Shown here in pieces: positions 39,373 through 44,984 of a stretch of DNA of 64,000 nt. The stretch comes from Snowella sp. (GTDB lineage: Bacteria; Cyanobacteriota; Cyanobacteriia; Cyanobacteriales; Microcystaceae): positions 1 to 64,000 of the forward strand of contig QBMS01000007.1 of NCBI GenBank assembly GCA_003249095.1, written 5' to 3'. The position numbers and the translations under genes were made by a program. The notes beneath the pieces are model-generated. The model was not told where the DNA came from and made no database searches. It saw only the letters and a program-made list of their open reading frames with translations. The first letter of the stretch is position 1, and each line of letters begins with the position of its first letter.

Positions 39373-41985
39373 CTAGATTTTTTGGAGAAAAGATGTTTTT
39401 TGACTCATTTGGCTATCTTTAATCAGTTCTGTTGCCGCTTCAAGATTGAGCGGTTTTGCAAATAAATAGCCTTGACCAAATTCACAACCTAAATTCTTTA
39501 ACGTATCCTGTTCTAAAATAGTTTCAATTCCCTCTGCAACCACATCCATTTGCAAGTTATGGGCAAGGGTGACGATCGCATTAATAATGCTAGAGCCTGC
39601 TTTTTCTAATTGAATACGAGTCACAAAGGAACGGTCAATTTTCAAGGTATCAATCGGGAAACGATACAAACGACTGAGGGAAGAATAACCCGTCCCAAAA
39701 TCATCCAGAGATAATTTTAAATTAAGTTTTTTCAGATTTTCTAAAATTTCCACTTGAATGACGCTATCCATCAACGCATTTTCAGTAATTTCTAACTTTA
39801 AATCCCAGCAATCGAAGGAATATTTTTGAACGATATTCTCTACAACTTCTACAATATTTTGCTGTATTAATTCAATTGGTGAAAAATTAACACTCATGCT
39901 CAAGATTTGATTAAACGAAATTTGCTCTTGCCATTGGGACATTTGTTGACAGGCAGCCTCTAAAACCCAGAGATCTAATACTTTAATTAAACCCGTTTCT
40001 TCGGCAATAGGAATAAATTCTCCTGGACTAATTAAGCCATGAATGGGATGTTTCCAACGGATAAGGGCTTCAAAGCCAGATAATTCTCCCGTTTTTAGGC
40101 AAATAATGGGTTGATAAAAAAGACAGAATTCTCCTTTTTTTAAGGCATCTCTTAATTCTCGCTCTAGTTGAAATCTTCGCATAGCGGCGATCTGTAAGGA
40201 GCTAGTCATAATTTGATAGCGCGATTTCCCCTGTTGTTTTGCGTAATACATCGCAATGTCTGCATCTCGTAGAATATCTTCAGGTTTAGAATAGCCGATG
40301 CTGCTGATTGTAATGCCAATACTAACAGTCACAAAAAGTTGATGATTTTCTAGATTAAAAGGATAATTGAGTTGGGTTAAAATTCGTTGGGCAATCTTAT
40401 CAATATTGGCCATTTCATCAATATTTTCAACTAAGATGACAAACTCATCTCCTCCAAATCTGGCCACACAATCTGAGGGACGAACACAGGTGCGGATGCG
40501 ATGACTGACCTGCTTTAATAAGGCATCTCCCACTAAATGACCTAAGCTATCATTAACTACTTTAAAATCATCTAAGTCCAAAAAAAACAAGGCAAAGTTT
40601 AAATCAGGATTACGTTGAGATTGCTCTAAAGATTCGGCTAATCTTTCCATTAATTGCACTCGATTCGATAATCCTGTTAAATAATCATGGAGCGTTTTAA
40701 ATTCTAATTCTTGAAAAACTTGTTTCAATTTAGCGGCCATTAGATTAAAGGAATTTGCTAAATCGCCAATTTCATTGTTGTAGTATAAATCAACTTTTTG
40801 GTCTAATTCTCCCGCCGCGATCGCCTTACTAGCTTGATTAATCTTAAGAATCGGATCGGTGATCCAACGAGCGGTAAAAATACCAACCCCGATCGCCACA
40901 AAAAGGGCAATCATAGAAACAATCAGGGTTAATCGATTATTAGCCCAAACAATTTCCATAAAGACTTTTTCGGGAATCACTACGCCAATTAACCAATCGA
41001 TACCTCCGCGATCGCGAAAGGGAATTACCCGAACAAAATTGCGTTGATTCTGTCCTTCAAAGGCAAAACTAAGAGGAGATTTTATCTCGGATAAATTGGG
41101 ATATTTTTGGTTGAGATAGGCTGCTGTTTCTCGAATAGTACTATCTTTACCATGAGCAGCTAGTAATGTTTTTAAAGATGGATTTTTAATCGGGGAATCT
41201 AATTCAAACTCAGAACTCGCAATAATTTCTCCCGTACCATCTAAAATAAAACTTTTTCCCGATGGACTAATTTTTAATTGACTCAGAAAATCACTAATAT
41301 TAGAAAGGGTAATTGGTGTGTCCAAAACGCCTAGCTTTTTTCCCTGGACATCATAAACTGGTAAAACCGTATCCAGAGCAATTCGAGAAGAATCAAACCA
41401 CAAATAAATGGGAGTCCAGGTAGCTTCTTGGGCTTTGATTGCCTGTTGATACCAGGGACGAAGACGGGGATCGTAGTTGGGAAAAACCTTCAATAATTTG
41501 CCCCTAGTGCCATCAGGGTTTAATTGATAGGTTTGATATTCCCCTTTCGTCGCTTTACTGACTATTTCAACTTGATATTGATTATCATGGGTTCTGGCAA
41601 TGCCTACATAATCGCCTGTTTCACTTCCCCAAGCGGTGTAGGGAACTGAGCGAAAGGATTGCATTTGCTGATATAAAAAATCCTGGATTTTCGACAAATC
41701 GGTTACCGTAACGTCACCTTGAATCAGATAATTTTTATTAACTTGATTCATTAATTGAGCATTGTCGAGGAAGTTTTTAACATGATTTTGAATCCGATTG
41801 CCGACTTCACTCCGCCATTGTTCGGCTATATTGTTGATAGCAATTTGGCTAAATTTATTAGATAAAAAACTAATAATTCCGACAGCAATAAAAATTTCAA
41901 AGGCAAAGGTAAAAATGAGAACCTGACGAATCGGTAACTTCATTAAAAATACTACAGTAAAAAATCTCAAGCTAAAAATCAACAA
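39373..41985 (-). CDS. Membrane dCache-HAMP-GGDEF-EAL protein (c-di-GMP turnover)
   Basis: RPSDCVARFGGDEFVILVE (I-site plus GGDEF), GFEALIRWKHP (EAL), DDFGTGYSSLSRLYRFPIDTLKIDRSFV. Confidence 0.95.
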   Translation of the reverse strand: MLIFSLRFFTVVFLMKLPIRQVLIFTFAFEIFIAVGIISFLSNKFSQIAINNIAEQWRSEVGNRIQNHVKNFLDNAQLMNQVNKNYLIQGDVTVTDLSKIQDFLYQQMQSFRSVPYTAWGSETGDYVGIARTHDNQYQVEIVSKATKGEYQTYQLNPDGTRGKLLKVFPNYDPRLRPWYQQAIKAQEATWTPIYLWFDSSRIALDTVLPVYDVQGKKLGVLDTPITLSNISDFLSQLKISPSGKSFILDGTGEIIASSEFELDSPIKNPSLKTLLAAHGKDSTIRETAAYLNQKYPNLSEIKSPLSFAFEGQNQRNFVRVIPFRDRGGIDWLIGVVIPEKVFMEIVWANNRLTLIVSMIALFVAIGVGIFTARWITDPILKINQASKAIAAGELDQKVDLYYNNEIGDLANSFNLMAAKLKQVFQELEFKTLHDYLTGLSNRVQLMERLAESLEQSQRNPDLNFALFFLDLDDFKVVNDSLGHLVGDALLKQVSHRIRTCVRPSDCVARFGGDEFVILVENIDEMANIDKIAQRILTQLNYPFNLENHQLFVTVSIGITISSIGYSKPEDILRDADIAMYYAKQQGKSRYQIMTSSLQIAAMRRFQLERELRDALKKGEFCLFYQPIICLKTGELSGFEALIRWKHPIHGLISPGEFIPIAEETGLIKVLDLWVLEAACQQMSQWQEQISFNQILSMSVNFSPIELIQQNIVEVVENIVQKYSFDCWDLKLEITENALMDSVIQVEILENLKKLNLKLSLDDFGTGYSSLSRLYRFPIDTLKIDRSFVTRIQLEKAGSSIINAIVTLAHNLQMDVVAEGIETILEQDTLKNLGCEFGQGYLFAKPLNLEAATELIKDSQMSQKTSFLQKI

Positions 41986-42192: not shown

Positions 42193-42705
42193 TTAACTTG
42201 TTTTTTTAGGTAACTTAGCAAAACTTTTTTTGAAAATTTCAATGTCCATGCCGCCCTCTTTTTCAATTCCCAAAGCACTCCGAGCTTGACCCAGATAAAG
42301 AGGCTGAGAAACCCCAGGCTTAGGATGTAACATGGTTCGCGCTCTAACAGTTAAATTTTTATCTCCTGCTCTTGCACCACGTCCATAGGAAAAGTAATCA
42401 TTCGATGCCTGTAATAAGGTCGCACGCAATTCTGTTTCGGTAATGGTCGGAGGCACGGAAATCACCACCTGATTTGCCCCATTGTCATAAACCCGAATAA
42501 AACGAACCGATCCTGGAACCTCTGTGCGACTAAACAAACCTAAACTTAACCCAAATAATCCGATGGTTAGAACCGCCATAAAACCCGTAATTCCCACAAA
42601 TCGAAAACGGACTCCCCATTTTAGGGCAAAAGCTAAAATAGTTAAAATCAAAGCGGAAATGGTCAGATAAGCCGACCATTGTGTGTAGATTGTAAAGTCC
42701 ATCAT
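42193..42705 (-). CDS. Ycf51-like (DUF2518) protein
   Basis: 170 aa; two N-terminal TM helices followed by soluble domain typical of cyanobacterial Ycf51 family. Confidence 0.6.
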   Translation of the reverse strand: MMDFTIYTQWSAYLTISALILTILAFALKWGVRFRFVGITGFMAVLTIGLFGLSLGLFSRTEVPGSVRFIRVYDNGANQVVISVPPTITETELRATLLQASNDYFSYGRGARAGDKNLTVRARTMLHPKPGVSQPLYLGQARSALGIEKEGGMDIEIFKKSFAKLPKKTS

Positions 42706-42782
42706 TCTTTAAAAATAAATTTAATCCTAATAAATATTATCTTAAATTTGTCATTCTTATCAATATAAAAATAATATTGATC

Positions 42783-43364
42783 TCAAATTAGTATTTTTTC
42801 AGAAATACTCGTCTCTGCTCTATTCAAATCAGTTTCGCCAATATCGTCATTACTGTTCGACTCTATATGATTAAAATCATAATTTGTTTTACTTTTACAA
42901 AACTCAAAAGCTTCAGCCATAAAATATGAAATTAATTCATTATTGCTTCCTGTAAAATCTGTAATTTTTTTAAATAAAGAATCTGGTAAATAAATGCTTA
43001 TTTTAGCCATTTGTGACCTGTCAAAAGATTTATATTTTTCTCCAAAATCAATCTTTTTTTCGCCTAATGTATTCTTATAAAGAATATACAAGAGAATAGA
43101 CTTTTTTATTATTTCTGCCATAGAATCTGCCTCTATTGCAGATACTATTCTAAGATGACGAATTACCTCTGGAAAAAGATAAAATGTTACTTTTTGTTCC
43201 TGAGAATTTGAGGGATTTATATTTACATATTTATTGTCAAGATCTTCACAAAAATTGTCATTGTTGTTCAATATTTCATAAACCAATTTAGCAGATCGGT
43301 TAGCAATTTTTTCTCGTCTTTCTAATGGTAACTTTTGTAATACATCGCTTAATGTTTTAGACAT
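42783..43364 (-). CDS. Putative chimeric antitoxin: HigA-like N-terminus plus two RHH-like segments
   Basis: MSKTLSDVLQKLPLERREKIANRSAKLVYE (HigA-type N-term); KVTFYLFPEVIRHLRIVSAIEADSMAEIIKKSILLYIL and AKISIYLPDSLFKKITDFTGSNNELISYFMAEAFEF (RHH-like); 18 bp after toxin. Confidence 0.6.
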   Translation of the reverse strand: MSKTLSDVLQKLPLERREKIANRSAKLVYEILNNNDNFCEDLDNKYVNINPSNSQEQKVTFYLFPEVIRHLRIVSAIEADSMAEIIKKSILLYILYKNTLGEKKIDFGEKYKSFDRSQMAKISIYLPDSLFKKITDFTGSNNELISYFMAEAFEFCKSKTNYDFNHIESNSNDDIGETDLNRAETSISEKILI

Positions 43365-43382
43365 GACTAAACCTCATGGATT

Positions 43383-43730
43383 TCAAAGATTTGCTAAATG
43401 TTCATGAAAACGCTGATCAGCTTTTCGGATTAGATTCTTATAAAATTGTTTTTGGCTAATGCCTGATTTATCCCCTGCTACTAACAGTATGGCACATCGT
43501 TTAGGATCAAAGGCAAAAGCCACCCGCCAAACACCATCCTTTGTATTAAACCTTAACTCTTTCATATTGGGATAAGAAGATCCTTTAAGGGTATCTACAT
43601 GGGGTCGTCCTAATCTATGTCCAAAGACTTCTAATAATCGGACTTGAGCAAGTAACTCATCTTGTACTTCCTCCGTTAATTGCTCAAATTCAATTACAAA
43701 GGCATCATGTAGTTCTACCCTCCATTCCAT
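43383..43730 (-). CDS. HigB/RelE-superfamily (phage Gp49-like) toxin
   Basis: MEWRVELHDAFVIEFEQLTEEVQDELLAQVRLLEVFGHRLGRPHVDTLKGSSYPNMKELRFNTKDGVWRVAFAFDPKRCAILLVAGDKSG. Confidence 0.9.
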   Translation of the reverse strand: MEWRVELHDAFVIEFEQLTEEVQDELLAQVRLLEVFGHRLGRPHVDTLKGSSYPNMKELRFNTKDGVWRVAFAFDPKRCAILLVAGDKSGISQKQFYKNLIRKADQRFHEHLANL

Positions 43731-43739
43731 TAATCTTAC

Positions 43740-44984
43740 CTAAATACTCATCCCTAGATATTTAGCAACGGTTTGCACATCCTTATCACCCCGTCCTGAG
43801 CAGTTAATCACAATCCGAGGACTGCCCGTTAATTGGGGACAAAGTATGTCTAAATAGGCGATCGCATGGGAGGTTTCTAGGGCGGGAATAATGCCTTCCA
43901 ATTCCGATAACCGTTGCAGAGCTTCTATCGCTTCTACATCGGTAATACTGTAATATTCTGCCCGTCCCGCATCTTTGAGATAACTATGTTCGGGGCCAAC
44001 GCCAGGATAATCTAACCCTGCACTGATGGAATGAGCCTCGACGACTTGACCTTCCTCGTCTTGCAATAAATAGCTCATGGCTCCGTGCAAAACTCCTGGA
44101 CGGCCTTTGGTAAGAGTGGCGGCGTGTTTACCAGAAATAATACTTTCTCCTGCGGCTTCTACCCCAATAATCCGCACAGAAGAATCTTTGAGGAACTCAT
44201 AAAACAAACCCATTGCATTAGAGCCACCGCCCACACAGGCTAACAAAATATCGGGTAAACCACCCCATTTTTCTAAACACTGTTCACGGGTTTCTAGACC
44301 AATGACATGATGAAAATCGCGCACCATCATGGGGTAGGGATGGGGGCCAGCGACCGATCCTAAAATATAGTGGGTGGTTTCTACGTTCGTGACCCAATCT
44401 CGAATGGCTTCTGAGGTTGCATCCTTCAGCGTCCCTGTTCCTGCTACGACGGGTTGAACTTTTGCACCTAAAAGATTCATGCGAAAAACATTCAGTTTCT
44501 GACGTTCCATATCTTGAACGCCCATATAAATGATACATTCCAAGCCAAAACGAGCGCAGACGGTGGCAGTGGCCACACCATGCTGTCCTGCTCCTGTTTC
44601 GGCAATAATCCGTTTTTTACCCATGCGTTTGGCTAACAAGACCTGACCCAGGGCATTATTAATCTTGTGCGCTCCTGTATGGTTTAAATCTTCCCGTTTG
44701 AGGTAAATTTGGGGCCCACTGCCATCGGCTTTGGCGTAATGTTCCGTTAGTCTTTCGGCAAAATAAAGCGGGCTGGGTCTGCCGACGTAATCTTTTAGCA
44801 ATCCCTGAAGTTCTTTGAGAAAAGCGGGATCATCTTTGTATTGACTGTAGGCCGTTTCTAGCTCACTCAGGGCTGGCATGAGGGTTTCAGGGACATATTT
44901 GCCACCATAGCGGCCAAAACGACCAAAGGCATCGGGATACTGAGTATTAACGGAAGGGACGGTCGCGAGGGGTGTAGTGGTCAC
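43740..44984 (-). CDS. trpB: Tryptophan synthase beta chain
   Basis: [61 protein letters not shown]. Confidence 0.98.

Follow-up and report, generated by a model that had tools for sequence, protein, structure and literature searches.

A putative chimeric antitoxin with a HigA-type N-terminus and a predicted tandem ribbon-helix-helix unit in a Snowella genome

In the window (the whole stretch of Snowella sp. DNA that we analyzed, 64,000 nucleotides long), we found a gene pair that is probably a type II toxin-antitoxin (TA) system of the Gp49/HigBA kind, with an antitoxin in which a HigA N-terminus has been grafted onto a tandem ribbon-helix-helix (RHH) DNA-binding unit. The elements established directly are the gene order, an intact toxin, the HigA N-terminus, an RHH domain of the slr0373 type, a predicted tandem RHH fold, the derived state of the arrangement, and its insertion site. 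Points that speak against this reading are the single example with no close relative, a second RHH unit that has no sequence match, a poor full-length model, and the closeness of trpB to the toxin gene (9 bp).

The toxin gene (43383 to 43730, minus strand; 115 aa) belongs to the Gp49/HigB family of the RelE/ParE superfamily and matched the Pfam profile PF05973 with 78.8 bits (E = 3.2e-22; cutoff, 23.9 bits). In an alignment with 39 relatives, the window toxin has the majority residue at every one of the 29 positions with conservation of 85% or more, among them the invariant residues R69, F74, D75, K88, G90, Y97, and A104. A PDB sequence search with the toxin gave no match at E 0.01. Members of the Gp49 branch of the RelE superfamily are listed as ribosome-dependent mRNA-degrading toxins whose genes lie ahead of those of their antitoxins (PMC11980606, PMC5906591). 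The window pair has this arrangement: the antitoxin open reading frame (ORF; 42783 to 43364, minus strand; 193 aa) follows directly 3' on the same strand after a gap of 18 bp (toxin end, 43383; antitoxin start, 43364), and a Shine-Dalgarno-like GAGG sits upstream of its ATG. An earlier note on this DNA had proposed a HigB/Gp49-type toxin followed after 18 bp by a 193-aa ORF, and both ORFs lie where it placed them. Toxin family, toxin-first order, short spacing, and N-terminal antitoxin module are all shared with Gp49-type HigBA systems (higBA2 of A. baumannii, HigBA2 and HigBA3 of M. tuberculosis, and Tad-Ata), but the antitoxins of those systems carry an XRE helix-turn-helix (HTH) and a beta-lid where the window antitoxin has RHH units.

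That every conserved residue of the toxin has been kept argues that it is being held in check. If instead the antitoxin were nonfunctional, the toxin would be an orphan that is neutralized by another antitoxin or is itself harmless. The existence of only one example is consistent with such a history, as are decayed toxin copies in relatives (stop codons at loci L092 and L095 and a frameshift at L037), but the window toxin is intact at all conserved sites, its gene is present in a single copy in the Snowella genome, and the N-terminal module of the antitoxin is well conserved; we regard an orphan toxin as very unlikely.

Residues 1 to 31 of the antitoxin (43272 to 43364, minus strand) form a HigA-type module that is predicted to bind the toxin. 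To a profile of the first 38 residues of 27 toxin-partner antitoxins, from which the window protein had been left out, the window protein matched with 34.8 bits (E = 3.2e-9) in a search of 4,793 open frames from the window and all toxin loci. Given that this profile was independent, that all of the better matches were other toxin partners, and that the best unrelated frame reached only E = 0.05, we consider the HigA-like N-terminus to be real, as the earlier note had proposed for the first ~30 residues. The solved antitoxins closest to the toxin partners by profile are MtHigA2 (7ewc; E = 1.2e-14) and MtHigA3 (6lty; E = 5e-11), and work on solved HigA proteins shows the toxin bound by the N-terminus (PMC8420761, PMC7340258). 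In M. tuberculosis HigA2, the N-terminus serves toxin binding, a helix bundle binds DNA, and a beta-lid provides dimerization (PMC8420761); the N-terminus of HigA3 is likewise absent from the structure of the antitoxin alone (PMC7340258).

The similarity to HigA ends at a linker (residues 32 to 53; 43206 to 43271, minus strand) that has low model confidence and no match. No XRE domain was detected in the antitoxin with Pfam or NCBIfam, even up to E = 10, in agreement with the claim that an XRE-like segment is absent. The HigA beta-lid motif GGxLxLxVxxP, which is conserved in the partner alignment, is absent from the window antitoxin sequence too, a loss in addition to that of the HTH that had gone unremarked earlier. 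Because the protein lacks an XRE HTH and its residues 52 to 165 model as RHH, we do not file it as HigA proper.

The first RHH unit (residues 54 to 100; 43065 to 43205, minus strand) is recognizable from its sequence. Residues 55 to 114 match NCBIfam NF052617, the slr0373 family, with 49.7 bits (E = 3.1e-13); the curated full-length cutoff of 100 bits is not reached, since only the RHH half is common to both proteins. Pfam RHH_7 matched weakly (E = 0.03 to 0.045). The second unit (residues 119 to 159; 42888 to 43010, minus strand) had no sequence match in Pfam, PHROGs, the PDB, or 380 genomes. An origin of this unit as a copy of the first was rejected: it scored 2.5 bits against a profile of the first unit and was outscored by at least 8 of 2,000 shuffles. 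It starts with MAKISIYLP at an internal ATG (43010, codon 119) preceded by CAGG; this resembles the start of a free-standing small RHH gene and may once have been, or may still be, a separate start. The C-terminal tail (residues 160 to 193; 42786 to 42887, minus strand) is a helix predicted with low confidence and has no match.

An AlphaFold2 model of residues 52 to 165, for which the alignment covered only the first RHH unit, shows a strand-helix-helix arrangement twice, with the two units packed together (mean pLDDT, 84.5; pTM, 0.77). The first unit is modeled as strand, helix, helix at a pLDDT of about 89 to 92; the second, comprising a strand (120 to 127) and helices (128 to 138 and 142 to 159) packed on the first unit, has nearly equal confidence. 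As read from the sequence, the outward residues of the two strands follow a similar pattern, K58-x-T60-x-Y62 and K121-x-S123-x-Y125. The full-length antitoxin modeled poorly (pLDDT, 63; pTM, 0.40; residues 43 to 56 below pLDDT 50), and a fold search with this model, which was too poor for the purpose, gave no match. Top PDB matches of the model of residues 52 to 165 in Foldseek were chains of the F-plasmid relaxosome, which we take to be TraY, with probabilities up to 1.00 and TM scores up to 0.67 at E values of only 0.07 to 0.3. Viral RHH proteins matched with E values as low as ~1e-3; the best viral match, at E = 4.3e-4, was to an unnamed protein. Membership in the RHH superfamily (a strand and two helices, with a two-stranded ribbon joining the dimer) therefore comes from sequence for the first unit and from predicted fold and fold matches for both.

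Of the two beta-helix-helix segments that the earlier note had described, the first is supported by both sequence and model, and the second by the model, with no sequence match. An RHH fold is what the NF052617 match, the model, and the Foldseek matches all point to, and the description of this part as pseudo-dimeric also gained support, in that both units are predicted to pack within one chain, as in F TraY, in which an RHH-dimer fold lies within one polypeptide (PMC12117103). The model thus supports a pseudo-dimer, with RHH units predicted to dimerize within a single chain. F TraY shares the two RHH units per chain with the modeled window antitoxin, but it is a conjugation protein without a toxin-binding part, and its sequence identity to the window antitoxin is only 9 to 15%.

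The traceable sequence relative, slr0373, covers the first RHH unit only. Members of the slr0373 family, which we found in 244 of 390 cyanobacterial genomes searched, have an RHH domain like antitoxin residues 55 to 114; they differ in having one RHH followed by a Cys-Pro-x-Cys (CPxC) segment, which the window antitoxin lacks, and no HigA part. The slr0373 protein responds to stress and blue light in cyanobacteria and is of unknown function (PMC7496141). TrcR, another cyanobacterial RHH repressor (PMC10272220), was also considered as a candidate relative of the RHH part. As a recent donor of the RHH domain, the genome's own slr0373 gene is unlikely (about 43% identity over 46 aa). A reading that we find distinctly unlikely is that the HigA N-terminus acts as a portable neutralizing tag on an slr0373-like single-chain RHH regulator; the RHH part would then derive from a host stress-regulator lineage, and the toxin would be tied to a host regulatory circuit, answering to it or feeding it, rather than to simple self-repression.

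Partners could be read at about 60 related toxin loci, some of them near-duplicates, from cyanobacteria, two cyanobacterial plasmids, and proteobacteria and others from GTDB. By our own count, 52 of these loci have XRE-type partners, and at 8 the XRE domain has been lost and the HigA N-terminus kept; an RHH partner was found at none of them. The partners without XRE have a short basic tail (L077, L092, L133, and L160), have only the lid, with the beta-lid motif (LEVVVNLPGKSP) retained (L036 and L037), or are truncated (L040). The first four, all cyanobacterial, are HTH-less ORFs of roughly 61 to 71 aa in which a HigA N-terminus is followed by the basic tail, and three of the four end in VxIFxxINDxxLx; they look like a distinct minimal antitoxin type. 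The L036 partner has a long additional C-terminal region. At L089, the partner has a different extension in an open frame of 200 codons beside an intact toxin, and its N-terminus is weakly HigA-like (E = 0.0019). Like the window antitoxin, the HTH-less cyanobacterial partners (L036, L037, L077, L092, L133, L160, and L089) have kept the HigA N-terminal module and lost XRE, but they have no RHH and instead carry the lid alone, a short basic tail, or extensions of other kinds. Retention of the N-terminus beside a full-length toxin by the HTH-less partners at L036, L077, L133, and L160 suggests that neutralization is carried out by the N-terminus and not by the HTH.

In the toxin tree, the window toxin falls within a group (84/76 support) whose members mostly have XRE partners. 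Given this nesting, the XRE form is most likely ancestral and the RHH form derived. We found no second chimera in samples of 58, 390, 50, and 391 cyanobacterial genomes (overlapping samples, with up to ~730 different genomes) or in the plasmids, phages, viral contigs, and GTDB contigs searched; the genus was represented by one genome, that of the window itself.

The pair occupies an inserted stretch (42706 to 43733, ends approximate; minus strand) between trpB (43740 to 44984), which flanks the toxin side, and a DUF2518 gene (42193 to 42705), which flanks the antitoxin side. In two genomes of the same family, DUF2518 follows trpB directly, with no TA genes between them and a spacing of 7 bp (L103) or about 80 to 100 bp (L104), which makes an insertion of the pair at this site most likely. 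An imperfect direct repeat of 25 nt (72%) is present at the end of the antitoxin ORF (42792 to 42816) and at the 3' end of trpB (43731 to 43755); it is too weak to be claimed as an insertion scar in AT-rich DNA and could be due to chance. An 870-aa protein (39373 to 41985), encoded on the same strand downstream of DUF2518, resembles by eye a membrane sensor that contains GGDEF and EAL-type regions.

The Snowella genome is a draft (4.6 Mb in 237 contigs), and GC content drops from 38% in the toxin gene to 27% in that of the antitoxin, both of which would be compatible with an assembly or sequencing artefact that fused two genes. Such an artefact is nonetheless extremely improbable in our view: the junction is in frame within the 193-aa ORF, the pair fits cleanly into a gap that relatives also have, flanked left and right by syntenic genes, and the contig runs on in both directions.

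With trpB just 9 bp away from the toxin gene, no classical operator-promoter is obvious upstream. The pair may be transcribed from trpB or by use of a promoter within that gene; scans of the locus for consensus promoters and repeats found nothing specific. The lack of operator space upstream of the toxin would fit an accidental fusion, in which the start of a higA gene became joined to an unrelated RHH gene through deletion or recombination. The toxin would still be blocked through the N-terminus, and the RHH part would have no control over the operon and would either bind its old target or be in the course of being lost. Also consistent with an accident are the occurrence of the chimera in one genome only, the GC content of the antitoxin, which is the lowest among the 45 long ORFs of the window, and the complete loss of the HTH in other relatives, from which DNA binding seems dispensable. 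The RHH part has not decayed, however: both units model well, and the 160 codons past the HigA part contain no in-frame stops (~15 expected). None of 20,000 mononucleotide shuffles and none of 20,000 first-order simulations was free of stops, and the open frame, at 27% GC past residue 33, is therefore not a product of chance. We consider an accidental fusion rather unlikely.

We favor the domain-swapped antitoxin proposed earlier, a reading that the HigA N-terminal similarity and the RHH fold both support; neutralization, DNA binding, and autoregulation by this protein are what we infer from it. The first 31 residues, which are probably disordered in isolation, would wrap and block a toxin that by its family should be a ribosome-dependent, mRNA-cleaving RNase. 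The XRE HTH and beta-lid, which provide DNA binding and dimerization in ordinary HigA, would have been swapped for two RHH units folding onto one another within one chain. Like F TraY, this tandem RHH could contact an operator through the major groove, and it would need no second subunit to bind DNA.

RelE-superfamily toxins are also paired with RHH antitoxins, as in the window pair, in BrnT-BrnA, RelBE, and ParDE. BrnT-BrnA fusions with either RHH or HTH have been reported (PMC11980606), and a single modular network links RelE-Xre with RelE-RHH pairs (PMC2701414). RelB begins with its RHH and wraps the toxin with its C-terminal part (PMC11980606), whereas in the window antitoxin the HigA N-terminus precedes the RHH. 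Exchangeable antitoxin DNA-binding folds on RelE-fold toxins are thus already known from BrnTA, and the window case is no new category. As far as we have searched the literature, what is new is the combination of a HigA N-terminus with a single-chain tandem RHH, and hence a swap inside one antitoxin gene.

If this reading is true, the pair would represent a natural domain-swap experiment in which the toxin-binding end stays and the DNA-binding and dimerizing part changes from XRE plus lid to a single-chain RHH. Considered alongside the HTH-less relatives, it suggests that the first ~31 residues are a separable neutralizing module of Gp49-type HigA. It would also provide a concrete route by which RelE-fold toxins could pass between XRE and RHH antitoxins, a modularity that was earlier seen mainly as the pairing of whole genes.
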